Assembly (NCBI RefSeq): GCF_900176365.1
Contig: NZ_FWXY01000008.1
Location: 1-64,000 of the forward strand
Source: Desulfocicer vacuolatum DSM 3385
GTDB lineage: Bacteria; Desulfobacterota; Desulfobacteria; Desulfobacterales; Desulfobacteraceae
DNA: 64,000 bases
Reading direction: 5' to 3'
Shown: positions 3,086 through 18,594 of the stretch, piece after piece
How the letters are laid out: each line of letters opens with the position of its first letter
How positions within the stretch are numbered: the first letter of the stretch is position 1
Notes under the pieces: model-generated
The model's database searches: none
What the model was told of the DNA's origin: nothing
The model's input: only the letters and a program-made list of their open reading frames with translations
Program-made: the position numbers and the translations under genes

Positions 3086-5002
3086 TTATTCATACATATT
3101 AGCTGCAAGTTCTTTAAGGATTTCAATCCCCTGTAATTCCATTGGATTTCGATATATAACCGGTTGAATCAAGTCTGGATAGTCTGCGGCAAATTGTTTT
3201 TTGATTTTGCTTTCACGTTGAGACACAGCGGTGCACAACGGGCAATTGTCGGCATGGGTTGCCATGTTTAAAAAAACAACAGGAACATTGATATTCATGT
3301 CATGGCATGCAGACAAAAGATCCCGGGTTTCTTCAAGGGCCATATGATTTAAAATTGAAACGGCATAAAGGGCTGACTTTTCAGGATCTGTTAATATCCG
3401 CCTGAGCATCTTAAGGGACTTTGACATTTTAATCAATTTTACCGAAAGTTTTGGTAACCGGAAAAAATTTTTATATTTCAACAACAGATTAAAAATAACC
3501 TTCAACCATTGATCCATTAACTCCGGGGTCTGCAAAAGTCGAATCAAATGGCCGGTGGGGGCTGAATCCAAAATCAATAGATCACAACTGCCTGCGGAGA
3601 TGAAATCCATGGCCATGTTCAACGCCATTACCTCATCCAGTCCCGGAGGGGCCAGCTCCATGAGTTGTTCCATTACCTGTTGATCAAAGGTCAGATCAAG
3701 ACTTGATGAAAAATCTGTGAGAAAATTTTGAAGTTCATCTTCATAGGCTTTTTTTAAGGCGTTAAAATCCTTTGACGCATCAATTTCAACGGCGCTCAGA
3801 CGGGGAGTTAGTTTCACCGGGACCGGACCAATGGGTGTGTCAAAACATTGGGATAGAGAATGGGCAGGATCGGTGGAAAAAATCAGCACCTGTCTGTTTT
3901 TATTATTCTCGGCAACTCCGCATGCCGTGGCACAGGCCATGGTGGTTTTACCCACGCCGCCCTTGCCGGCAAAAATGAGCAGATTTAAATCATCCACAGG
4001 CCATGGGGCACAATTTTCAACATCAATTTGGCTGCGGGTTTCAGCGGAAACAGCATTTGCAGACTGCAGGGACGGAGTCACGGAATAAATTCCCTGCCAA
4101 AAAGTATCCGTGAGCACATCTCCCAGAATCTCCTTGGGATAAAGGGGAACTGCCCATATGTTAAGATCCGGAATTGTGTGAAAGAATTGCCCCAGGCGCT
4201 GTATTTGCCCGTGGTGCTCCCCAGCGCACACCGGGCAGTCGGTGAGGGGGTAAATTCGATTGACAATGAGATCAGTGACAGGAAATTTCCCTTTTTTCAG
4301 TCGGGACAACAGGGTTTGCGTCTCGGACAAACTTAAGGGTTCTGCCAAAAAAACCGGAACAAACCTGCATTTTTTTTTGTCAGAGAATCGTTTCTCCATG
4401 GTTTTTACTGAATTTGCAAGATCCAGCAGAAAAACGTCAATATCATCTTTCTTATAGCTCCCCTGGAATATTTTTTTCATATAACGATGTTTTGCAAGTA
4501 AAATATCAAGGGCATTGAGCCATCCATTGATGAGTTTCGGCATTTCCAGGAGACGAAGGGTATGTCCGGTGGGAGCCGTATCCACAATAACGCTTTCATA
4601 TTGTTCTGAATTAATCCATTGGGATATTTCCAGAAAAGCCATGAGTTCATCAAGGCCGGGAAGGGAGAGTTCCAGCACCTGATCAATGTCCGGCTCATCA
4701 AAAAAAGTGCCCCTGGAAGCAATCATCCGCAGTTTTTCCCGGTGATTGAGTTTAAAGGTATCAAGGGCCTTTGCCGCATCCAGTTCACGGATTTCAAGAT
4801 TGGAAGGGATATGAAAGGTGCTGATGCTGTCATTAACAGAATGGGCAGGATCTGTGGATACCAGGAGAAATGAATCCTCTGGACGGGACACGGCCAGGTT
4901 CAATGCATGGGACACGGCGCAGGTGGTTTTTCCCACCCCTCCTTTTCCGCCAAAAAAAACCAGTTTGAACATTTCTCCATTTAAGAAATGATTTGAAGTC
5001 AT
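3086..5002 (-). CDS. Tandem ArsA/Get3-like anion-transporter-family ATPase
   Basis: 638 residues made of two homologous ATPase halves. The first deviant Walker A is GGKGGVGKTT (residues 18-27); the second (GKGGVGKTT) lies near residue 345. Each half has the family switch motif (DTAPTGHTLRLL, and DSAPTGHLIRLL). Each also has a CXXC late in the half (CPVC and CPLC) followed by a Gln/Lys-rich helix, which resembles the zinc site of Get3/TRC40 membrane-protein chaperones. Its ATG overlaps the gvpG stop (ATGA) and it sits between gvpG and gvpK. No arsenic genes are nearby, so a role in handling hydrophobic gas-vesicle subunits is more likely than arsenite efflux; this is inference. Confidence 0.85.
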   Translation of the reverse strand: MTSNHFLNGEMFKLVFFGGKGGVGKTTCAVSHALNLAVSRPEDSFLLVSTDPAHSVNDSISTFHIPSNLEIRELDAAKALDTFKLNHREKLRMIASRGTFFDEPDIDQVLELSLPGLDELMAFLEISQWINSEQYESVIVDTAPTGHTLRLLEMPKLINGWLNALDILLAKHRYMKKIFQGSYKKDDIDVFLLDLANSVKTMEKRFSDKKKCRFVPVFLAEPLSLSETQTLLSRLKKGKFPVTDLIVNRIYPLTDCPVCAGEHHGQIQRLGQFFHTIPDLNIWAVPLYPKEILGDVLTDTFWQGIYSVTPSLQSANAVSAETRSQIDVENCAPWPVDDLNLLIFAGKGGVGKTTMACATACGVAENNKNRQVLIFSTDPAHSLSQCFDTPIGPVPVKLTPRLSAVEIDASKDFNALKKAYEDELQNFLTDFSSSLDLTFDQQVMEQLMELAPPGLDEVMALNMAMDFISAGSCDLLILDSAPTGHLIRLLQTPELMDQWLKVIFNLLLKYKNFFRLPKLSVKLIKMSKSLKMLRRILTDPEKSALYAVSILNHMALEETRDLLSACHDMNINVPVVFLNMATHADNCPLCTAVSQRESKIKKQFAADYPDLIQPVIYRNPMELQGIEILKELAANMYE

Positions 5003-7715: not shown

Positions 7716-8906
7716 CTATGAAAAATCTATTGCCTGTTCAATCCAACTCTTAACATCCACCAGCCGAGAAGTTTCTCCCAATAATTCACGAAGCGCTTCC
7801 GGAGTCAACTCTCCCAATTGCTTAAATGTAAATATACCGGAAGCATTCAGCTGTTTCAGACGTCCTGGACCGATACCTGTAATATAGGTTAAATCATCTT
7901 TTTTTTTTACCTTAACATCAGTTTCTTTCTTAGACTCATCTTCTTTTTTTGCGTTAATCTCCGTTTCTTTCTTAGTTTCCTCTTCCTTTTTTACATTGAT
8001 ATCGATTTCTTTCTTGACAGTTTTCATCTCTTTTTTTTCTTCCACATCAACGGCCGGCACACTGTCTGATTTCTTCTTAGACTGCAATGATAAAGCAGAG
8101 GCTTCCTTAAATTTTTCAGGTGAAGATGGGACAGGTGTTTCAGGAACATTGTCAACTATTTTTTTTTTAAATGACCAGATAGCCCTTGCCCCGGCAAGAT
8201 CATCTGAAAAGTCTTTACGGAATAGTGCCACCTGCTCCTGGAGATCCGCCACTGACTGGACCACCTGGGCAATGAATTCCCGGCGTTCTTTTTGACTTAT
8301 CTTGCTAATTTCTTCATGGGATTCACGAAACTCGTTTTGCATTTGATATACTTTTAAGCCAAGATCCGAGACAAATTGTTTCAGTTCCTTGCCAGTACGT
8401 GCAAAATCAGACTTCATTTTTTCTGTTGCGGTAAAACGTTCCTCATTAAAGGTTTGTTTTAATGTTTCAACATCATTTTTTAAATTTGCCAAAAAAGCAG
8501 TGCGTTTTTCCTTATTTTCCTTTGAAGATTTAAAAAAATCTTCCCGAAAAACTTCCCGGGTCTGCGAAACGGTCTGGCCAAGATCAGAAACAAAAGCTCT
8601 GATATCCGACATAAAGGCATTAAGCTCTTTAACACTCTTTTCGGCATTTTCTTTGCGCTCCCGGCTAAAATCGGCTTGCATATCAGAAACGCCTGTGCTC
8701 AGTTCATTTAAGAACGTATCTCTTTTTGCTTTTTCCGTTTCAGCCATTTTCTGATGATCGTTTCGAAAACGCGCCTGCATTTCAGCTGTGTCTGATTTCA
8801 ATTCGGCAACATCTCTACCCAGATTGTTGATGAATGATCTCCTGTCACTGGACAGTCTATCAACATCTTCCCTTAAACGGGTCATATCTTCGGTAAATCG
8901 GCCCAT
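7716..8906 (-). CDS. gvpC: GvpC-like repeat protein with C-terminal helix-hairpin-helix domain
   Basis: 396 residues. Residues about 24-245 consist of six helical repeats of about 33-40 residues, each starting F-(I/L/M/V)-x-x-(L/I) (FINNLGRDVAEL, FLNELSTGVSDM, FMSDIRAFVSDL, FLANLKNDVETL, FVSDLGLKVYQM, FIAQVVQSVADL). This is the pattern of GvpC, the outer-surface stiffening protein. A Lys/Glu-rich linker with three short near-repeats (KKEEETKKETEIN type) follows. Residues about 345-390 (DDLTYITGIGPGRLKQL) form a helix-hairpin-helix domain of the kind that can bind nucleic acid or protein. Ribosome site AAGGAG. The C-terminal fusion is unusual for GvpC. Confidence 0.8.
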   Translation of the reverse strand: MGRFTEDMTRLREDVDRLSSDRRSFINNLGRDVAELKSDTAEMQARFRNDHQKMAETEKAKRDTFLNELSTGVSDMQADFSRERKENAEKSVKELNAFMSDIRAFVSDLGQTVSQTREVFREDFFKSSKENKEKRTAFLANLKNDVETLKQTFNEERFTATEKMKSDFARTGKELKQFVSDLGLKVYQMQNEFRESHEEISKISQKERREFIAQVVQSVADLQEQVALFRKDFSDDLAGARAIWSFKKKIVDNVPETPVPSSPEKFKEASALSLQSKKKSDSVPAVDVEEKKEMKTVKKEIDINVKKEEETKKETEINAKKEDESKKETDVKVKKKDDLTYITGIGPGRLKQLNASGIFTFKQLGELTPEALRELLGETSRLVDVKSWIEQAIDFS

Positions 8907-9029: not shown

Positions 9030-9080
9030 AAAAAAGGCCTCTCCATGAATAGATCAAACTAAAATGAAAAAGCCTTTTTT
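9030..9080 (-). terminator. Terminator-like hairpin downstream of gvpA
   Basis: Eleven bases after the gvpA stop the minus strand reads AAAAAAGGC, a loop of about 33 bases, then GCCTTTTTT followed by ATTGTT. The perfect 9-bp stem with U-rich right arm looks like a partial terminator that would let gvpA be expressed more strongly than the genes behind it. Because it is symmetric it could act in both directions. The long loop lowers certainty. Confidence 0.55.
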
Positions 9081-9090
9081 ATGTCATAGA

Positions 9091-9309
9091 TCATGCAGGT
9101 GCTGCGGCTGCAGCTGTGAGGCCAATGGCTTCAGCGTATTTCAGGTAGGTCTCAACAGATGCAATAACAACTCTTGCTTCAATGGAAATCAGTTCGATTC
9201 CAACAAGGGAAATCTTTGCCCATGCATCAACAACAATACCTTTATCCAGAATACGATCAACAACTTCTGCCAGACTTGAAGAATCTGTAGTTTTTTGAAC
9301 CTTAGCCAT
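9091..9309 (-). CDS. gvpA: Major gas vesicle structural protein GvpA
   Basis: 72 residues, the usual length of GvpA. The sequence has the classic core ([30 protein letters not shown], then [22 protein letters not shown]) and a short Ala-rich tail. GvpA forms the ribbed wall of the gas vesicle. A strong ribosome site (AAGGAGATG) lies 5 bases upstream. It is the first gene of its operon, preceded by a sigma-54-like promoter and followed by a hairpin that probably limits read-through. Confidence 0.97.
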
Positions 9310-9386: not shown

Positions 9387-9403
9387 TTCAATTTGCGTGC
9401 CAA
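9387..9403 (-). promoter_or_regulatory. Sigma-54-type promoter of gvpA
   Basis: The minus strand reads TTGGCACGCAAATTGAA. Against the sigma-54 consensus (YTGGCACGRNNNTTGCW) it keeps the GG of the -24 element and TTG of the -12 element at correct spacing, but the -12 GC is GA and one further position differs. Predicted transcription start is near 9376, giving an untranslated leader of about 67 bases before gvpA. A sigma-54 activator gene lies in the same cluster (16085-17488). Confidence 0.7.
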
Positions 9404-9490: not shown

Positions 9491-9527
9491 TATATGGAAA
9501 TGTTATCAATGGAAACGTTTCCATATA
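9491..9527. promoter_or_regulatory. Nested dyads upstream of gvpA, probable activator binding site
   Basis: A perfect 16-bp palindrome ATGGAAACGTTTCCAT lies at 9509-9524. An outer pair, TATATGGAAA (9491-9500) and TTTCCATATA (9518-9527), overlaps it, giving three ATGGAA-type half sites. The centre is about 140 bp upstream of the predicted sigma-54 start, the distance usual for enhancer-binding NtrC-family activators. The same ATGGAA-N4-TTCCAT pattern recurs at 18241-18256. Confidence 0.65.
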
Positions 9528-9559: not shown

Positions 9560-9934
9560 TCAGTGGATATTTTTCAAGACAGACAGAATTTCCTGGTTTT
9601 GAAACGGTTTTGAAATAAAATCTGAAATCAATCCCTCTTCAAGGGCTTTTCTGATTGCAGGATCATCTCTGTAAAAATATCCGGAAACCATTATAAGTCT
9701 CAGGCCCCGGGATACTTCCCGAATTTTTTTTGCCAGATCCAGCCCGTCGATATCAGGTAGTTTTGCATCCACAAAAACAGCTTTAAACGATTCTTTCCGG
9801 ATCAAGTGAAGGGCCTGCCGGCCATTTAAAGCATTTTTGGATAAAATATTGTTTTGTGCCAGAAGGTTTTGAAATGCCCAGCACATATCAGGTTCATCGT
9901 CCACAATCAGATAGATATCTTTGTGATCATTCAT
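9560..9934 (-). CDS. Single-domain response regulator
   Basis: 124 residues when started at MNDHKDIYLIVDDEPDMCW; the longer open frame upstream overlaps the kinase gene out of frame and has no meaning. It is a receiver domain only: acidic pair in IVDDEPD, phospho-acceptor Asp in AVFVDAKLPDIDGLD, switch Ser in LIMVSGYF, Lys in ISKPFQNQE. No output domain. It starts 52 bases after the PAS kinase on the same strand, so the two probably form a pair. It may relay phosphate to the DNA-binding regulator at 16085-17488 or act by protein contact. It ends about 160 bases before the gvpA promoter. Confidence 0.88.
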   Translation of the reverse strand: MNDHKDIYLIVDDEPDMCWAFQNLLAQNNILSKNALNGRQALHLIRKESFKAVFVDAKLPDIDGLDLAKKIREVSRGLRLIMVSGYFYRDDPAIRKALEEGLISDFISKPFQNQEILSVLKNIH

Positions 9935-9986: not shown

Positions 9987-11465
9987 TTACAACAGGGGCA
10001 ATCGTACGGTAAAGGTACAGCCGGAATCTTTGTTGCTTTCCACCTCAATGGTTCCCATGTGCTGCTTGACAATGGCATAGGAAATGGAAAGTCCCAGACC
10101 GGTTCCCCGCCCCACAGGAGATGTCGTGTAAAACGGATCAAATATTTTATCGATATCCTGCTTTAAAATACCGGTTCCCGTATCCATGATCCGAATCAGA
10201 ACATCCCCGCCGGATCTGGTAATGGAAAGCTCAATTTTGCCCCCATCGGGCATGGATTGAATGGCATTTAAAAAAAGATTTATCAGCACCTGTTGCAGCA
10301 TACTGGCATTGGCTGAAATAAAAATATTTTTTCTGTAAATAGTGATTTTTATTTTGATCTGCTGAATTTTAGCCTGATTATGGACCAGAGGGATGGTATC
10401 CTCCACAAGGGAGTTTAGACAAATTCTCTCCATGTGTGAATTAGTGGACGGGCGGGCAAATCGTAATAAATTTTCAATGATAATGGAGGCTCTCTGGATA
10501 CCGGTGTAAATTTTTTCACCACATTCTTTTCGAAATTCTGTACTGATATCGTCATTTTGCAAAAATTGTGCTGCGGAAGAACAGATGGCAAGGGGGTTTC
10601 TGATTTCATGGGCAATGCCCCCGGCCATCACCCCCAGGGCGGCAAATTTTTGTGATTTTAATAATTCCGCTTCCAGTTTCAGACGTTCGGTCAAATCCCG
10701 CCCCACCCCCACAATGGCAGCCGTATTGCCGTGTTCATCCTTCATGGGGGAGAAAACCCAGGACACACGGATGGTTGTTCCATCCTTTGTAATCAGTTCC
10801 CATTCCGCCTGCCGGGATTGTCTACCGTTTTTCATCTGGGTAAAAACCTCGTGCATGTCTTTTTGTTTCTCAATGGGAAGATATTCAATGAACGAACGTC
10901 CCTTCATTTCGGGAAATGTATATCCGGAAATTTTTTCCACAGCCGGATTCCAGGAAAGGATTCTCCCCCCGGTATCGGTGGAAATAATAATATCAGTGGC
11001 ACTGTCAATGATGCTGGCCAGATGTCTTTCAACCCTCTGAACCTCTTCACTGAGGCGAATTTGCTCTGTCACGTCATCCATGAGCAACATGACGTTCTCC
11101 ACCACTCCCTTCCAGGTGAACGGAAAAATTCTGTAGTAGTAAATATTCATGGGAAGGCCGGGTGAACGGTAGGACATTCGATTTCCTCCGGTGGCATTAC
11201 CGCTTTTAAAAACCCCGCGAATCTGTTGCGGAATATTCATGGTATTTAAAATAATGGTGGGAAAAATGTCAACCAGGGGAAAACCGATGGTGTTCTGGGT
11301 GCTTCTACGACTTTTTTTAAGAAAATTGTGGTTGGCTGAAATGACTTTCATGTCACGATCCAGCATCAAGACGGAACTGGGAATGGCGTCCAGAAGCATG
11401 GTGTACAGTTTTCTATGACGTTGAACTTCCGAAGAAAGGTTGTTTTCAGATACAAAAGTTTTCAT
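9987..11465 (-). CDS. PAS-domain sensor histidine kinase (NtrB/AtoS type)
   Basis: 492 residues, no membrane segment seen, so probably cytoplasmic. Order: PAS 1 (about 20-125, with NIYYYRIFPFTW), PAS 2 (about 145-265, ATDIIISTDTGGRILSWNPA), dimerisation/phospho-acceptor box (MAGGIAHEIRNPLAI, His near 286), then the ATPase domain with LINLFLNAIQSMPDGG, IMDTGTGI and GRGTGLGLSI. This architecture is typical of kinases that pair with sigma-54-dependent regulators. It sits between the second gvpF/L block and gvpA, suggesting that a cytoplasmic signal (redox, energy or ligand) controls gas-vesicle genes. Confidence 0.9.
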   Translation of the reverse strand: MKTFVSENNLSSEVQRHRKLYTMLLDAIPSSVLMLDRDMKVISANHNFLKKSRRSTQNTIGFPLVDIFPTIILNTMNIPQQIRGVFKSGNATGGNRMSYRSPGLPMNIYYYRIFPFTWKGVVENVMLLMDDVTEQIRLSEEVQRVERHLASIIDSATDIIISTDTGGRILSWNPAVEKISGYTFPEMKGRSFIEYLPIEKQKDMHEVFTQMKNGRQSRQAEWELITKDGTTIRVSWVFSPMKDEHGNTAAIVGVGRDLTERLKLEAELLKSQKFAALGVMAGGIAHEIRNPLAICSSAAQFLQNDDISTEFRKECGEKIYTGIQRASIIIENLLRFARPSTNSHMERICLNSLVEDTIPLVHNQAKIQQIKIKITIYRKNIFISANASMLQQVLINLFLNAIQSMPDGGKIELSITRSGGDVLIRIMDTGTGILKQDIDKIFDPFYTTSPVGRGTGLGLSISYAIVKQHMGTIEVESNKDSGCTFTVRLPLL

Positions 11466-11766: not shown

Positions 11767-12567
11767 TTATGACGGGTCAGTCAAGTTGGATTCAGTGTTG
11801 ATAAAATTAAAAGGCGGCCATGGCCCGTTCATCATATGTCTGCCGGATGAAGACCCGCAAATATTCTGAAATCGGGAGCGAAACAGGGATATGTTTTTTT
11901 TTGAAATCAAAAAGAACAAAGATATCAACAATGCGTTGCCATCGGTTTTCTCAGCTCCTTGTAAAGAAAGGGAGGGGCAGTCCTTTTCCAAGGGCTGAGA
12001 CTCCTGTTTAAATTCCATATAAAGTCCCCTGAAGTGCTGGAGAATATCCCTTGTTTTTTCATGAATTTCAGGCGGAAGGCGATTTTGCTGTTCATACATC
12101 GCTTTTCTTTGTTGAAGAAATGTTGTGCCGGATATTTTTTTTGGGGATATTGCCGGTTCTTTTTTTTTAACACAGCAAGGAGAGTTGGAGATAAAACGTA
12201 CGCACATTTCCGTGCAGTCATGGAGGCGTTTTAATTGCAGGAGATATGACTTTTCATTGTTGTTCAAGGCGGTAATCATATGTGCGTACGTCCTGAAAAC
12301 AGCCGCAAACCGCATGGGTATAACCGTTCGATTCTGATGATATGAATCAATGACCCCGTGATAGGCCAGCAGGGACTTTACATGGGTGTCAGGCGGTTTG
12401 CCCAGTGTGGATACGACCCCTGAAATCTTATTGGAACAAATTTCATGCACCGGCTCGCCGTCAATGCCCGGGGGGACAAGTTTTCTTGTTTTTTCCATCT
12501 CCCCGGAAGAGAAAACGCAATAGAGCAAATGCAGAGTCAAAGTCCTTCTCCCCGGGTTGTTTTGCAA
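11767..12567 (-). CDS. gvpL: Gas vesicle protein GvpF/GvpL family (third paralogue)
   Basis: 266 residues. The N-terminal strand LTLHLLYCVFSSG and the end NGPWPPFNFIN are the family marks; the middle keeps TVIPMRFAAVFRT. It has a basic, Cys- and Ser-containing stretch (about 125-150, SNSPCCVKKKEPAISPKK) where the paralogues differ. The start codon lies 31 bases inside the preceding paralogue, so the pair is translationally linked. It is strongly diverged from the 5398-6156 copy, suggesting a separate role or partner. Confidence 0.85.
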   Translation of the reverse strand: MQNNPGRRTLTLHLLYCVFSSGEMEKTRKLVPPGIDGEPVHEICSNKISGVVSTLGKPPDTHVKSLLAYHGVIDSYHQNRTVIPMRFAAVFRTYAHMITALNNNEKSYLLQLKRLHDCTEMCVRFISNSPCCVKKKEPAISPKKISGTTFLQQRKAMYEQQNRLPPEIHEKTRDILQHFRGLYMEFKQESQPLEKDCPSLSLQGAEKTDGNALLISLFFLISKKNISLFRSRFQNICGSSSGRHMMNGPWPPFNFINTESNLTDPS

Positions 12568-13346
12568 AAACTATAAGGGGCCCAGGGCCCGGAAACAACC
12601 AGGGAAATCCCGGTTTGTGAAAATTCTTTTTCTGCCTGGGAAATCTCCTGCAAAAAGGCAGATTTGCTGTCATTATGAATTAAAAATGCAAGATTAAACA
12701 TCATCTCCAGATTATTTTTTTCTGTTTTTTCTGTGAAAAGCTCTCTGGGTGAAACTTCCGGATTTCTTTTTGTGAGATGATCCAGAAATATTCCGCAGCG
12801 CCTCTTGATCCATTGATTTATCCCGGTTTCAACCTTTTTGTTAAATTGATGCTGAGCAAAGTATTTCTTTCCGGGGGATAAACCGTCAAGCTGTTTTTTT
12901 TCTTGTTTGAACTTTGTTTTAATCAAAAATTCAAGGAGTTGTTTTCGATTAATAAATCCTTTTAAACTGTATTCGCATTTATGTTGGGTTTGATTCAGAA
13001 ACCTGGAGATCAATCCGGATTTAAGGTGCAGGGTTTCCCTGAGATTTTCCATGGACGAAAAAAGGGTGGCAAAACGCGCCGGATACACGGATGATTCCTG
13101 CATCATGCGCTCAATTACATTTTCGTGCCGCATGGCCCGGGGCCCTATCCAGTCAATATTTTTCATGTTTTCTTCAGCAGATGTCCCCACAAATGTGTTT
13201 AGAGGGATTATATTGTAAACCGCCACAAAATTCTCCAGATGTTCAAAGCAAACGGGGGTGTTTGCATCAATGCCCGTGATGCCCGGGGCATTGAATTTAT
13301 TCGCCCGCGTGACACAATAGAGATAAACTGCCTTTTTTTTTTCCAT
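12537..13346 (-). CDS. gvpL: Gas vesicle protein GvpF/GvpL family (second paralogue)
   Basis: 269 residues. N-terminal KAVYLYCVTRANKF, middle SSVYPARFATLFSS and the closing SGPWAPYSFC match GvpF/L. The sequence is rich in Lys between about 130 and 200. It follows the CDC48-like gene by 47 bases and overlaps the next paralogue. A short ribosome site (AGGTG) precedes the ATG. Confidence 0.88.
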   Translation of the reverse strand: MEKKKAVYLYCVTRANKFNAPGITGIDANTPVCFEHLENFVAVYNIIPLNTFVGTSAEENMKNIDWIGPRAMRHENVIERMMQESSVYPARFATLFSSMENLRETLHLKSGLISRFLNQTQHKCEYSLKGFINRKQLLEFLIKTKFKQEKKQLDGLSPGKKYFAQHQFNKKVETGINQWIKRRCGIFLDHLTKRNPEVSPRELFTEKTEKNNLEMMFNLAFLIHNDSKSAFLQEISQAEKEFSQTGISLVVSGPWAPYSFCKTTRGEGL

Positions 13347-13393: not shown

Positions 13394-15562
13394 CTAATTG
13401 TCTGTGACAGTACGTGAACTCCGCACTTCATCCATTGCCGTTTGCAATTGCGCCGGTGTAATGTGAACCGCATCATCGTCATCTTCTTTAACGGCATGGT
13501 CCCGGGTATTTTTTTCCATGTCAGCCACTTTTTTCCGGATGGCCATGAGTGCCCCCCGGTTACACGTTGCCGCAATTTCAGCACCGCTGAACCCCTCGGA
13601 ATCCCGGGCAAGATCCCCCAGGTGATCTTTAAGTTCAAAGGGCTTATGTTGAAGATGAATTTGAAAAATTTCTTTTCTATCATTTTCATCCGGCAGGGGA
13701 ATTTCAACGATTTCATCAAACCGCCCGGGCCTTAGCACCGCTGCATCCAGCATGTCCACGCGATTTGTGGCACCCAGTACCAGTACCCCTTTTAATTCAT
13801 CAATGCCGTCAAATTCTGCCAGAAATTGACTCAGCACCCGTTCCCCCACATTGGAATCGCCGGTCCCTGCGTTCCGGGTGGGCACCAAGGCATCAATTTC
13901 ATCAAAAAAAATAATACACGGAGAGGCCTGTCTGGCTTTTTTAAAAATTTCCCGAACGCCTTTTTCCGACTCTCCCACATATTTTGATATCAATTCCGGC
14001 CCTTTGACGGAGATGAAGTTGACATGGCTCTCATTGGCAATGGCCTTTGCAAGAAGGGTTTTTCCGCAACCCGGTTTCCCTGATACCAAAATACCTTTGG
14101 GGGGACGGGTACCGGCCTTTTGAAAAATCTCCGGATATTTTAAAGGCCATTCCACTGCCTCCACCAGACGTTTTTTAATGGTCCGATTTCCCCCGATGTC
14201 ATCCCATTTTACATTGGGCACTTCAATGAAAACCTCTCTAATGGCCGAAGGTTCCACCTCCCGCAGGGCAAACATGAAATCATCCATGCCGATTTCCAGA
14301 TTTTTAAGCTGCTCATAGGGTATTTGGGTCATGTTAAAATCAATGTCAGGAAGCAGACGTCTCAGGCAGATCATGGCCGATTCCCGGCACAGGGCCTCCA
14401 GATCCGCCCCCACATAGCCGTGGGTTATCTCTGCCAGGCGGGACATGTCCACATTCTTTGCCAGGGGCATTCCCCGGCTGTGAATGTCCAAAATTTCCAT
14501 GCGACCGTTTTTATCGGGTATGGGAATGGTGATTTCCCTGTCAAACCGTCCAGGTCGTCGCAGGGCAGGATCCAGGGCATTGGGAATATTGGTGGCGGCA
14601 ATGACAATGAGATTCTGCCGCCGGTTCAAGCCGTCCATGAGGGCCAGAAGCTGTGCAACCACCCGTTTCTCAACATCTCCCACCACTTTTTCCCGCTGGG
14701 GGGCAATGGCATCAATTTCATCCAGAAAAACGATGCTCGGGCCCTTGGCTGCGGCCTCTTCAAAAATTTTGCGCAGGTGCGCTTCACTTTCACCATAAAA
14801 TTTGTGAATGACTTCAGGACCGCTCACCGAAAAAAAATTGGCTTCGGTTTCATGGGCAATGGCTCTGGCAATCAGGGTTTTTCCGCACCCGGGGGGGCCA
14901 TACAAAAGCACCCCTCTGGGGGCGCCGATGCCCAGACGTTCAAACACTTCCGGAAAGCGCAAGGGCAGTTCAATCATCTCCCTGATGCGCTGCACCTGGG
15001 AACCCAGTCCGCCAATATCTTCGTATGAGATACCGGCATCTTTTTCCGCACCCTTGCGGGATTTTGATTTACCGATGATTAGCTGGGTGGTGGGGTTGAT
15101 CATCACCGGGCCCCGGGGAACGGTGGACTCAATTTTAAAATTGGCGGTACGGCTTCCAAACAAAGTGGCCCGAATGGCATCTCCGGCCTGTATGGGAAGA
15201 CCGTCCAAAAGACTTCCAATGTAATCCAGATCCCGTTTGTCCGGAGAAATATTCACCGGAACAAGCACCACGCGCTGGGCCGCACTCCATGGGATATCCC
15301 TCACTTCAACGGTTTCGTCCAGTCCGCATCCTGCATTTTCACGACTGATTCCGTCCAGCTGTACCCGGGCCTGTCCACGGACGTCCTTATATGCCGGCAT
15401 AACCTTGGCAACGGTGACCCTTTTTCCTGTTATTTCAACAATGTCGCCGAGGGATACTCCCATACGTTTCATATCTTCGGGGTCCATCCTGGCAAAGGCA
15501 CGTCCCACATCTTTTTTCAATGCCTCGGAGACCTTAAGTTTTAATGATGCAGCAGATGACAT
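13394..15562 (-). CDS. CDC48/p97-like double AAA ATPase
   Basis: 722 residues when started at MSSAASLKLKVSEALKK, which has a ribosome site (AAAGGAACG) and lies 22 bases after the Hsp20 stop; an in-frame codon 45 bases earlier would overlap that gene. Order: double-psi-barrel N-domain (about 1-85), second N subdomain (about 90-165), D1 AAA (Walker A GPPGCGKT, Walker B IVFLDEIDA, PGRFDRE), D2 AAA (Walker A GKPGCGKT, Walker B IIFFDEIDALVPTR, PGRFDE). This unfoldase family extracts or disassembles protein complexes. Its place between gvpH and the gvpL pair suggests a role in gas-vesicle assembly or turnover. Confidence 0.92.
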   Translation of the reverse strand: MSSAASLKLKVSEALKKDVGRAFARMDPEDMKRMGVSLGDIVEITGKRVTVAKVMPAYKDVRGQARVQLDGISRENAGCGLDETVEVRDIPWSAAQRVVLVPVNISPDKRDLDYIGSLLDGLPIQAGDAIRATLFGSRTANFKIESTVPRGPVMINPTTQLIIGKSKSRKGAEKDAGISYEDIGGLGSQVQRIREMIELPLRFPEVFERLGIGAPRGVLLYGPPGCGKTLIARAIAHETEANFFSVSGPEVIHKFYGESEAHLRKIFEEAAAKGPSIVFLDEIDAIAPQREKVVGDVEKRVVAQLLALMDGLNRRQNLIVIAATNIPNALDPALRRPGRFDREITIPIPDKNGRMEILDIHSRGMPLAKNVDMSRLAEITHGYVGADLEALCRESAMICLRRLLPDIDFNMTQIPYEQLKNLEIGMDDFMFALREVEPSAIREVFIEVPNVKWDDIGGNRTIKKRLVEAVEWPLKYPEIFQKAGTRPPKGILVSGKPGCGKTLLAKAIANESHVNFISVKGPELISKYVGESEKGVREIFKKARQASPCIIFFDEIDALVPTRNAGTGDSNVGERVLSQFLAEFDGIDELKGVLVLGATNRVDMLDAAVLRPGRFDEIVEIPLPDENDRKEIFQIHLQHKPFELKDHLGDLARDSEGFSGAEIAATCNRGALMAIRKKVADMEKNTRDHAVKEDDDDAVHITPAQLQTAMDEVRSSRTVTDN

Positions 15563-15584
15563 TAGGCGTTCCTTTAATTTTACG

Positions 15585-16082
15585 TTATGGCATGCATTTG
15601 ATCTCAAGAATACCGTTGTTACAAGAAATTTTCATTTTTTCCCGGGAAAATGAACGGGGCAGCAGCACCTCTTTTTTATATTTTTTATCCCCCTTTGAGG
15701 CATCAATTTCCAGCAGATCCTCATGGACATTTACCTTGATATCTTCAAGGCTGGTGCCCGGCATTTCTGCCACCACAAGAATATGATCCTTTTCTTCAAA
15801 TATATCCACAAGGGGCTCACGGACTTCATGAACAAAGGACTCTCCTGACTTCTCATCTTTTCTGATATTTCCAAAGGGCTGCACCTCAGGTTTATCCGAG
15901 CCCAGTCCCATTTTCATGGAAAAACCATATACCCCCTTGATATTATTATCTTTACCTTCAAAAGATATGGTTTTGGACAACTGTTCTCCTTTTTCTGCCA
16001 GCTCTCCCAGTTTTTCCAGAAACGTCAAAACCCCGTCAAAGGGGGACTTACTTTGTTTTTTTTCCTTTTCAGGCCTTGTCAT
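15585..16082 (-). CDS. gvpH: GvpH-type small heat-shock protein (Hsp20 family)
   Basis: 165 residues. N-terminal part (FDGVLTFLEKLGELAEKGEQLSKT, then GVYGFSMKMGLG) is typical of the GvpH proteins of gas-vesicle clusters; residues about 85-165 are an alpha-crystallin domain (PLVDIFEEKDHILVVAEMPG, closing NNGILEIKC). It should be a cytoplasmic holdase protecting hydrophobic vesicle proteins. Its ribosome site (GGAGATT) lies in the last codons of the sigma-54 regulator gene, only 2 bases of spacer, so the two are co-expressed. Confidence 0.88.
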   Translation of the reverse strand: MTRPEKEKKQSKSPFDGVLTFLEKLGELAEKGEQLSKTISFEGKDNNIKGVYGFSMKMGLGSDKPEVQPFGNIRKDEKSGESFVHEVREPLVDIFEEKDHILVVAEMPGTSLEDIKVNVHEDLLEIDASKGDKKYKKEVLLPRSFSREKMKISCNNGILEIKCMP

Positions 16083-16084
16083 TT

Positions 16085-17488
16085 TTAATCTCCATTAATT
16101 GAGATACCGTAATTTTTCAATTTGGTATGAATGGTTTTATAATCTATCTTTAACCGCCTTGCCGCCTTTGCCTTATTTCCTCCCACCTGTTGAAGTATCT
16201 TTGTTAATATCTTCTTTTCAAGAATGGAGGTATTCTGTTTTATAATCTCCTTCAGGGGTCTTCCTTCCCATGATGGAAGATCTTGTTCAGGCATTATACC
16301 GGCCATTTCCTGTTGGGGCATATCGTTCAAATCAAGGTGTTTTTCCGTGATCTCCTCATCTGCCATGAGAACGGCTCTTCTAACGGTGGATTTCAGTTGA
16401 CGTACATTCCCCGGCCATTGATATGTTATTAACCGATTCATGGCATCGGAACTGAATCCTTTTATATTTTTTTGCAGCATGACGTTGGTGGAATCGAGAA
16501 AACGTTTACTCAGGTAGGGTATATCGTCGGGTCGTTCCCTTAAGGGGGGTATGCGGATGATAAAATCATTTAATCGAAAAAAAAGATCTTTTCTAAAGAC
16601 GTCCGGGGAACATGTTTCCAAATCTCGATTGGTGGCAGCCAGAATTCTCACGTTCACAGGAATGGGCGTTGTGCCCCCCACACGGTAAATTCTTCTTTCC
16701 TGGAGGGCCCGCAATAATTTTGCCTGGGACCCCATGGACATATTAAATATTTCATCCAAAAAAAGCGTACCGTCATTGGCGGCTTCAAATTTCCCCATCT
16801 TTTGCTGCATGGCACCGGTGAAAGAGCCTTTTTCATGACCAAAAAGTTCACTCTCCAAAAGCGTTTCCGTGATGGCACCGCAGTCCAGGGCAATAAAGGG
16901 GCCATGGCTTCGGTTGCTGGCCTGGTAAATGGCTGTGGACACCAATTCTTTGCCTGAACCGGTTTCCCCTTGGATAATAACGGAAAAATCAGATTTGGCC
17001 ACCCGGTTGATCTGCATGAGCAGATCCCCGACCTGTTCGCTGTGCCCCATGAGTTTACGCAGATGAACCCGCTGATCCAGTTGTAATGACAATTGCTTGA
17101 TTTTGTTCTTAAGTCTCCGTTCCTGGCATGCCCGTTGCAATACCCTGACCACCTCATTGTGATCAAAGGGCTTTGAAAGATAATCATGGGCACCCAGCCT
17201 CATGGCTTCCACAGCCCCATGAACATCTGCAAACGCTGTGATGAGGATCACCGGCAAATCCGGATCAATTCCTTTGGATTTATTAAGAACTTCCAATCCG
17301 TTCATATGGGGCATTTTTAAATCAGATAAAACCACATCCGGCGTATATTGACGGATCTTTTCCAGGGCTTCTTTGCCATCATGGGCCGTTATGGTGGTAT
17401 AGCCTTCAGATTCCACCAACCGACATAACAGACGACATATGTCCGGTTCGTCATCCACAATTAAAATTTTGGCAGTTTTTAAATCCAT
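16085..17488 (-). CDS. Sigma-54-dependent NtrC-family response regulator
   Basis: 467 residues. Receiver domain 6-120 (phospho-acceptor in DVVLSDLKMPHMNG), AAA+ domain about 145-370 (Walker A GETGSGKE, sigma-54 contact loop GSFTGA in place of the usual GAFTGA, Walker B GTLFLDEIF, then an R-finger region), and a Fis-type helix-turn-helix at about 425-465 (GGNKAKAARRLKIDYKTIHTKL). It should activate sigma-54 promoters from a distant palindromic site. Embedded in the gas-vesicle cluster upstream of gvpH, it is the best candidate activator of the gvpA promoter at 9387-9403. Confidence 0.93.
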   Translation of the reverse strand: MDLKTAKILIVDDEPDICRLLCRLVESEGYTTITAHDGKEALEKIRQYTPDVVLSDLKMPHMNGLEVLNKSKGIDPDLPVILITAFADVHGAVEAMRLGAHDYLSKPFDHNEVVRVLQRACQERRLKNKIKQLSLQLDQRVHLRKLMGHSEQVGDLLMQINRVAKSDFSVIIQGETGSGKELVSTAIYQASNRSHGPFIALDCGAITETLLESELFGHEKGSFTGAMQQKMGKFEAANDGTLFLDEIFNMSMGSQAKLLRALQERRIYRVGGTTPIPVNVRILAATNRDLETCSPDVFRKDLFFRLNDFIIRIPPLRERPDDIPYLSKRFLDSTNVMLQKNIKGFSSDAMNRLITYQWPGNVRQLKSTVRRAVLMADEEITEKHLDLNDMPQQEMAGIMPEQDLPSWEGRPLKEIIKQNTSILEKKILTKILQQVGGNKAKAARRLKIDYKTIHTKLKNYGISINGD

Positions 17489-17575: not shown

Positions 17576-18211
17576 TTATATTTGTGTGGAACTGATCTTT
17601 CCTGCAGGACGGTAAATGGGATAAACAATTTCAATATCCGAACTGAGATAATTTTCAAGATTATGCAATATCCCCAGAAAGATAATTCCTGTTTCGCCGC
17701 TGTTAAGTGTTTGTTCGATTCTACCTGCCATGTACCGATCCCTTTGCTCTAACAGTTGTTGACTTAAAAATGACTCTGACACATTGTCATGGGGTGTCAT
17801 TTGACGCTTAATTGCTTCATACTCTTGTAGCAGAAGGGCAGGAGATTCAGTCCCCATAATGGTTGCACCTTTTTCCATGAGTTTCAAAAGCAATTGATGA
17901 TTGGGACTTCCCTGCGCCATCATATCTGTTACAATCTCTTTTTCTTTGCCGCACACGGCAAGGGCATCCTGATACAGACGAACCTTTTTATATGAAAGGG
18001 ACATATCCAAGAGGGATTGTTCAATATCCCGCCACATCTGTTTTATAACAACGGCTTTCCGTTCCACAGATGCCACACCGGACTGTCTGATGGTCTCCCT
18101 TTGAACCACCTCCTTCAATTGTCCAAAATCTTCCAGGGAATGGATAATGGGATAATAAATTAATTTTCTCTGTTTTATTTCAGATGTCATTTTATTTTTT
18201 TCTTTACTCAT
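17576..18211 (-). CDS. Hypothetical protein heading the gvp regulator operon
   Basis: 211 residues, soluble, no signal. I do not recognise a named family with confidence. The C-terminal part (LLEQRDRYMAGRIEQTL, then GETGIIFLGILHNLENYL) loosely recalls TraB/GumN-type or haem-binding-like folds with an R-D-x-x-M-A helix and a G-I-x-H turn, but this is weak. The middle is helical. It is the first gene before the sigma-54 regulator, separated by 87 bases, and its promoter region carries the ATGGAA-N4-TTCCAT dyad. A signalling or accessory role in gas-vesicle control is inferred from position only. Confidence 0.7.
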   Translation of the reverse strand: MSKEKNKMTSEIKQRKLIYYPIIHSLEDFGQLKEVVQRETIRQSGVASVERKAVVIKQMWRDIEQSLLDMSLSYKKVRLYQDALAVCGKEKEIVTDMMAQGSPNHQLLLKLMEKGATIMGTESPALLLQEYEAIKRQMTPHDNVSESFLSQQLLEQRDRYMAGRIEQTLNSGETGIIFLGILHNLENYLSSDIEIVYPIYRPAGKISSTQI

Positions 18212-18240
18212 TATCTATTTTCTCTTTTTTTGATAAAAGT

Positions 18241-18256
18241 ATGGAATTTATTCCAT
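18241..18256. promoter_or_regulatory. Palindromic operator ATGGAA-N4-TTCCAT
   Basis: ATGGAATTTATTCCAT, with 6-bp arms identical to those of the dyad upstream of gvpA (9509-9524) and a different 4-base centre. It lies 30 bases before the start codon at 18211 and downstream of a TATAAT, where binding would more likely repress than activate. It suggests that one regulator controls both gvpA and its own operon. Confidence 0.6.
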
Positions 18257-18512
18257 GGTGGCAAATACATAGTATTATAGTTTTATTACCATGCCCATAC
18301 TAAGGCTCACAATTCATTTAGGATTGAGCACGGAATAACATTCCCATTTTAAAACCTACATGTTCCATGGTCAATGAATCTGTAAACACAGTATCAACAT
18401 GTACATACAAAAAATGTGCCATATTATGATTTTGTAATGTATGGAATTGGTCTAAATTTGGCCGGGAGCGTTGTTGAGTCGTTGAATGAGCCCGGTTTAA
18501 AAAGAGTACCAC

Positions 18513-18555
18513 CATTCTAATCCGGCTTTGTTGTGGGCAAAGCCGGATCAGAATG
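18513..18555. repeat. Long hairpin built from family-1 repeat halves
   Basis: CATTCTAATCCGGCTTTG (18513-18530) and CAAAGCCGGATCAGAATG (18538-18555) pair with one mismatch over 18 bp around the loop TTGTGGG. The sequence is the core of the family-1 repeat but with the outer arms made symmetric. No T tract follows on the minus strand, so it is not a classic terminator for the kinase gene that ends at 18595. Confidence 0.6.
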
Positions 18556-18594
18556 AAAGTATTTTTGAAGACATCTAAAGGATGCCGAAGGGAA

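Follow-up and report, generated by a model that had tools for sequence, protein, structure and literature searches.

A spaced dyad before gvpA and before the gas-vesicle regulator operon of Desulfocicer vacuolatum is a predicted site of their own NtrC-type activator

The gas-vesicle locus and its two dyads

The window analysed here, 64,000 nucleotides of Desulfocicer vacuolatum DSM 3385 (contig NZ_FWXY01000008.1, positions 1 to 64,000), carries a gas-vesicle gene cluster. The dyad ATGGAA-N4-TTCCAT stands before two operons of this cluster, at 9509-9524 upstream of gvpA and at 18241-18256 upstream of the operon encoding a sigma-54 activator, neither copy being assigned to a strand. The original prediction had reported both copies and their differing central bases, and both points were confirmed (ACGT in the first, TTTA in the second). 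Most probably the operons’ own NtrC-type activator docks at these dyads, a prediction made because they recur before both gas-vesicle operons in many relatives.

All genes concerned are on the minus strand. gvpA (9091-9309) encodes 72 amino acids (Pfam PF00741, NCBIfam NF006874). The regulator operon begins with orf211 (17576-18211, 211 amino acids), followed by the NtrC-type activator gene (16085-17488), an Hsp20 protein gene (gvpH-like, 15585-16082), a CDC48-type AAA ATPase gene (13394-15607, first codon uncertain), two GvpF/L genes (12537-13346 and 11767-12567), a PAS histidine kinase gene in the gvrB position (9987-11465) and a receiver-only response regulator gene in the gvrC position (9560-9934). 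From order and spacing we infer that these eight genes form one operon. The activator gene is thus part of the operon, as originally predicted, but comes second, after orf211. The second dyad is close to the operon as claimed, at 29 rather than 30 bases from the ATG at 18211. A strong hairpin (18502-18566, minus strand, -33.5 kcal/mol, z -8.2), which probably terminates transcription of the kinase gene upstream, separates that gene from the operon, so the operon’s promoter most likely lies between the hairpin and position 18212.

A sigma-54-type -24/-12 promoter was predicted for gvpA (TGGCACGCAAATTGAA, 9387-9402, minus strand), with GA replacing GC at -12. The centre of the gvpA dyad, a predicted enhancer, is ~140 bases upstream of the predicted start. 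A weaker copy (9/12 matches) adjoins it at 9494-9509, also unstranded, 15 nt start-to-start, as a possible tandem site. Before the regulator operon we found a sigma-54-like candidate (TGGCACATTTTTTGTA, 18406-18421, minus strand), with GT replacing GC at -12, which puts the dyad near +146. Sigma-70-like candidates were also present there: TTGACC-17-TAAAAT at 18374-18346 and a lone TATAAT at 18274-18279.

Frequent random occurrence of the pattern, named in the original prediction as a reason to abandon it, was seen neither in the own genome nor in the family background. The genome-wide count gave 3 sites in 5,035,799 bases, and the reversed pattern gave none in the same genome. The window had two dyads against a shuffle mean of 0.05, and 0/100 shuffles reached two. 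The third genomic copy is on another contig (C63:290701), in a gap between a pilin-like and a transposase-like frame, as judged by eye. In 79 genomes of the family lacking a gvpA match there were 114 sites in ~342.6 Mb (0.33/Mb), so ~1.7 copies are expected in the own genome. At this background rate, the chance of one perfect site in each of these two short regions is ~1e-8. Chance does not explain why two of the three genomic copies stand in two short leaders belonging to a single cluster. Among 15 dyads inspected outside gas-vesicle clusters (14 in relatives, one in the own genome), 11 were located within open frames 80 codons long or longer.

Recurrence of the dyad in related clusters

Clusters were collected by orf211 and GvpA searches in samples of the own family, order, class and phylum, plus 17 further entries and one extra locus. 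This gave 21 clusters with the window’s activator type (type A), the window included, of which 20 had a usable gvpA upstream region (G678 had none). The clusters cannot be taken as independent; for example, G709 and G491 belong to the same genus. The window’s own genome is referred to as G000, and other G numbers are the genomes compared. Dyads were scored as matches out of 12, sigma-54 candidates as matches out of 11 with a cut-off of at least 9/11.

In 24 stretches (396,001 bases) from the 21 clusters, 23 of the 24 near-perfect dyads (at least 11/12) were directly upstream of gvpA or orf211; equal base frequencies predict 0.87 in the whole of this sequence. With G000 removed, the figure was 21/22. 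The sole exception was inside a kinase gene of G287. One gvpA dyad of the same genome was 621 bases from the gene, beyond the 450-base region used for shuffling. A separate gvpA locus of G705, outside this count, had an 11/12 dyad at -207. With G000 excluded, dyads of at least 11/12 were found in 11/19 gvpA regions (shuffle mean 0.065) and in 6/20 orf211 regions (shuffle mean 0.035). When all exact spaced dyads were counted without a preset motif, with G000 among the regions, TGGAA-N4-TTCCA came top at both gvpA (9/20) and orf211 (7/21). At orf211 a cut-off of 9/12 did not discriminate (12/20 observed; shuffle mean 5.6, maximum 11), and we therefore relied on cut-offs of at least 10 and at least 11. 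The orf211 dyad of G731, distant from the gene at -367, was treated as chance; it stayed in the shuffle comparison and was left out of the Fisher table described below. Many sites had an adjacent second copy, often weaker (9-10/12), mostly 14 or 20-22 nt start-to-start, compared with 15 in G000.

The surrounding sequence was hardly conserved. Over the last 250 bases, sites included, the median pairwise identity in the 20 clusters with a gvpA region was 0.51 at gvpA (0.49 shuffled) and 0.49 at orf211 (0.49 shuffled). At least 10/190 pairs exceeded the shuffled maximum at gvpA, and one did so clearly at orf211 (G731/G397, 0.75).

Further copies were observed beside these. In G491, additional gvpA copies were each preceded by a perfect dyad ~280 bases away (C88, locus L175, 474-489; C89, 473-488). 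In G402 a dyad of at least 10/12 was located between orf211 and the activator gene. In G351 the orf211 dyad module was present once more, on a different contig (L158, C370, 1650-2150), upstream of a sigma-54-like TGGCATGGGCTCTGCT and a sensor-kinase-like open frame, both read by eye; this may be a third regulon member.

Outside the phylum, a gvpA on a plasmid of the gammaproteobacterium Thiodictyon syntrophicum was preceded by a sigma-54-type promoter at -207 and, farther upstream, by a perfect dyad at -331. It was the only one with a dyad among the five plasmid gvpA records inspected out of 44, those of Methylocella, Methylosinus, Spartinivicinus and Octadecabacter having no upstream dyad of at least 10/12.

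Position relative to sigma-54 promoters

At gvpA, 19/20 regions had a sigma-54-type promoter of at least 9/11 (shuffles of 19: mean 1.1, maximum 7), beginning 72-107 bases before the start codon. GC at -12 (GG-N10-GC) was found in 13/20; G000 has GG-N10-GA at gvpA and GG-N10-GT at orf211. The dyad centre was at -118 to -176 from the predicted start in 11/14 measurable genomes, among them G000, and farther (270-330 bases) in G472, G709 and G491. These sites have the features of sigma-54 enhancers, often in tandem and 100-200 bases upstream of the promoter (11/14). Activation of gvpA from afar, as originally predicted, is likely, with the dyad as an upstream enhancer. We rejected a reading of the dyad as an RNA hairpin, because the gvpA dyad precedes the promoter candidate.

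At orf211, a sigma-54-like candidate of at least 9/11 was present in 9/21 clusters (shuffles of 20: mean 1.2, maximum 5). The order was reversed here: in 7/7 measurable clusters the dyad was downstream of the candidate, centred at +86 to +202, and not in the upstream position of a sigma-54 enhancer. The candidate was found in 7/10 clusters with a nearby dyad vs 2/11 without (Fisher p = 0.03, a modest value from related clusters). The table was drawn by hand, with G288, G160 and G472, which have 8/11 candidates at orf211, counted as lacking a candidate. An ordinary upstream enhancer acting on a sigma-54 promoter inside orf211 was considered and rejected: from the dyad position to the activator gene, none of the 21 clusters had a coding-strand candidate of at least 9/11. 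On the opposite strand, orf211 contained a candidate in 4/21 clusters.

One sigma-54 activator that works from a position downstream of the promoter is FleQ, which binds in the leader regions of Pseudomonas operons; these are flagellar and not gas-vesicle operons.

The activator and orf211

The activator had a receiver domain (PF00072), an AAA+ domain (PF00158) and a Fis-type helix-turn-helix domain (PF02954), all above cut-off, which places it in the NtrC family of bacterial enhancer-binding proteins. Its loop reads GSFTGA, and Ser is also found in G070, G288 and G491. The motif G[AS]FTGA was present in 17/21 type-A activators, the phosphorylatable Asp in 21/21. The activators form one clade (99/97) with a nearly constant helix-turn-helix (GNKAKAAR..IDYKT). 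This clade and the dyad occur together in the window’s phylum and in a metagenome-assembled genome labelled Myxococcota. In 2/2 clusters with an alphaproteobacterial activator ([IM]DYKTYRTK) there was no dyad. Among type-B clusters, 2/15 (G479 and G599) had a dyad scoring 11/12 or more no farther than 700 bp from gvpA. The top matches of a plasmid search with the activator were mostly paralogues (AtoC, ZraR and similar).

Relatives of orf211 were found in both gas-vesicle cluster types examined, and 19 sequences shared 18 invariant columns. We also considered orf211 as the DNA-binding protein in place of the activator; this gave a weak TraB/PrgY match in 10/19 members (C-terminal and below the Pfam cut-off in the window), a Myb-like model in 1/19, a single match in a PDB profile search (E 0.62) and a poor AlphaFold model (predicted local distance difference test, pLDDT, 56).

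Comparison with known systems

According to the accessible text of PMC4982088, Serratia sp. ATCC 39006 has an NtrC-like GvrA, and its gvrA...gvrC operon is needed for gvpA1 transcription. Rapid amplification of cDNA 5' ends (5'RACE) placed the gvpA1 start downstream of a sigma-54 consensus; the consensus promoter of gvrA is of the sigma-70 kind (PMC4982088). An rpoN mutant showed lowered gvpA1 expression and unchanged gvrA expression, as cited from a thesis in PMC11778176. The window resembles Serratia in the order of the regulator operon and in having gvpA in an operon of its own behind a sigma-54 consensus (PMC4982088, PMC11778176, as far as accessible). It differs in the extra first gene orf211, in the dyad at both operons and in the sigma-54-like candidate at the regulator operon, whereas Serratia gvrA is described, in the text available, as sigma-70 dependent. 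No GvrA binding site was found in the accessible parts of PMC4982088, PMC5601083 and PMC11778176, or in a wider literature search for which subscription papers were largely beyond reach.

The second likeness is to Caulobacter FlbD and its ftr sites, where, in the accessible text of PMC3930126, one NtrC-type protein acts on several operons through one motif type and with both signs, activating some genes and repressing fliF. That system is flagellar, not gas vesicle, and has a FliX partner.

Regulatory model and alternatives

What the sequences themselves show are the sites and their conservation, the gene order and the promoter sequences of sigma-54 type. The mechanism that we infer, from the signal and the binding protein to binding, promoter use and the sign of autoregulation, would run as follows. 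The operon’s own PAS kinase and receiver-only protein would relay the signals that switch the activator on. The activator would then bind the gvpA dyad, often together with the weaker adjacent copy, ~120-175 bases upstream of the sigma-54 start, and open the gvpA promoter by looping. In the leader of the regulator operon the same activator would bind the second dyad, which would most likely serve as an enhancer downstream of the operon’s own sigma-54-like promoter and give positive feedback, with road-block repression as the second choice.

That one regulator serves both dyads, as originally predicted, is well supported at the level of sequence by the 23/24 placement, the top rank in the motif-free count and the conservation in relatives. 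The further claim that it probably limits its own operon was not supported as stated, given the dyad downstream of the sigma-54-like promoter and the association of dyad and promoter (p = 0.03). The orf211 dyad’s position fits a leader enhancer at least as well as repression, and the predicted sign leans to activation from the leader. Taken as a whole, it is probable that the dyad is a GvrA-type activator site, acting as an enhancer at gvpA and, in the activator’s own leader, most likely in positive feedback.

Several observations weigh against this interpretation. Both sigma-54 candidates of G000 deviate at -12. Of the type-A activators, 4/21 depart from GxFTGA (two GAFTDA, one GAFTSA, one GAYTGA). 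A nearby dyad of at least 10/12 was lacking at orf211 in 11/21 clusters, and 7/20 gvpA regions stayed below 11/12. Covariation between helix-turn-helix and site is not clean, G479 and G599 (type B) carrying the dyad with other helix residues. G070, whose activator is very similar to that of G000 and nearest to it in the activator tree, had no dyad of at least 10/12 at gvpA or orf211. In this genome the gene at the gvpA position (L051 12087-12227) was itself strongly diverged (57-60 percent) and both dyads were missing; the cluster is perhaps decaying or re-wired. Finally, the sigma-70 type and rpoN independence of the Serratia gvrA promoter, as far as PMC4982088 and PMC11778176 were accessible, speak against self-activation as a general rule.

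The activator might instead bind both dyads and repress its own operon, by blocking at the leader dyad the transcription from an upstream sigma-70 (or sigma-54) promoter. The window agrees with this, having the dyad between the promoter candidates and the gene and sigma-70-like candidates among them, as do the sigma-70 consensus of Serratia gvrA (PMC4982088) and the repression of fliF by FlbD (PMC3930126), both as given in the accessible text. A sigma-70 operator would, however, also be expected in clusters without an orf211 sigma-54 candidate of at least 9/11, and 9/12 of these lack a nearby dyad as well. We regard self-repression as rather unlikely, though it is the foremost alternative.

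A different, unlinked transcription factor could bind both dyads and co-regulate the operons. Gene adjacency does not prove that the activator is the binding protein, and G070 retains the activator without the dyad. Against such a factor stand the mere three sites in a 5-Mb genome, the location of most inspected sites outside gas-vesicle clusters within open frames, and the joint occurrence of site and activator clade in the phylum and in the Myxococcota-labelled genome, and we consider it improbable. That the palindrome arose by chance, or reflects common descent of the upstream regions and no function, is hardly credible. Sites do arise by chance at ~0.33/Mb and some close upstream pairs are still alignable, but the comparative dyad counts, the motif-free ranking and the near-shuffled upstream identity contradict it.

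Further features of the cluster

Directly 3' of gvpA, a hairpin with a U-rich end (9030-9090, -19.5 kcal/mol, z -4.1) could be a partial terminator keeping gvpA mRNA in excess over later genes. After gvpA, the window encodes a coiled, repeat-like protein of 396 amino acids (7716-8906), with two Pfam matches only, both below cut-off, perhaps in the role of GvpC. A tandem ArsA/GET3-type ATPase gene lies inside the cluster (3086-5002), with relatives in at least 10/20 other type-A clusters.

Implications

The general type of switch, with an NtrC-type activator and a sigma-54-dependent gvpA, is already known; we found no earlier report of the dyad site, nor of its odd position at the regulator’s own operon. 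It is possible, though somewhat doubtful, that GvrA-type activators of several phyla share this one dyad, as an upstream enhancer at gvpA and as an enhancer in their own leader (+86 to +202), forming an all-or-none positive-feedback switch for buoyancy. Gas-vesicle clusters have been moved between hosts as ultrasound reporters, and where expression failed, unrecognised regulators were named as one possible reason (PMC10344784, accessible text). In Serratia, genetics shows a regulator of this type to be necessary for gas vesicles, and we found no site published for it; the dyad offers a concrete, testable candidate. From the dyad one can predict which operons would respond in many related genomes, and it would be an example, backed by comparison of relatives, of a sigma-54 activator binding downstream of its promoter.
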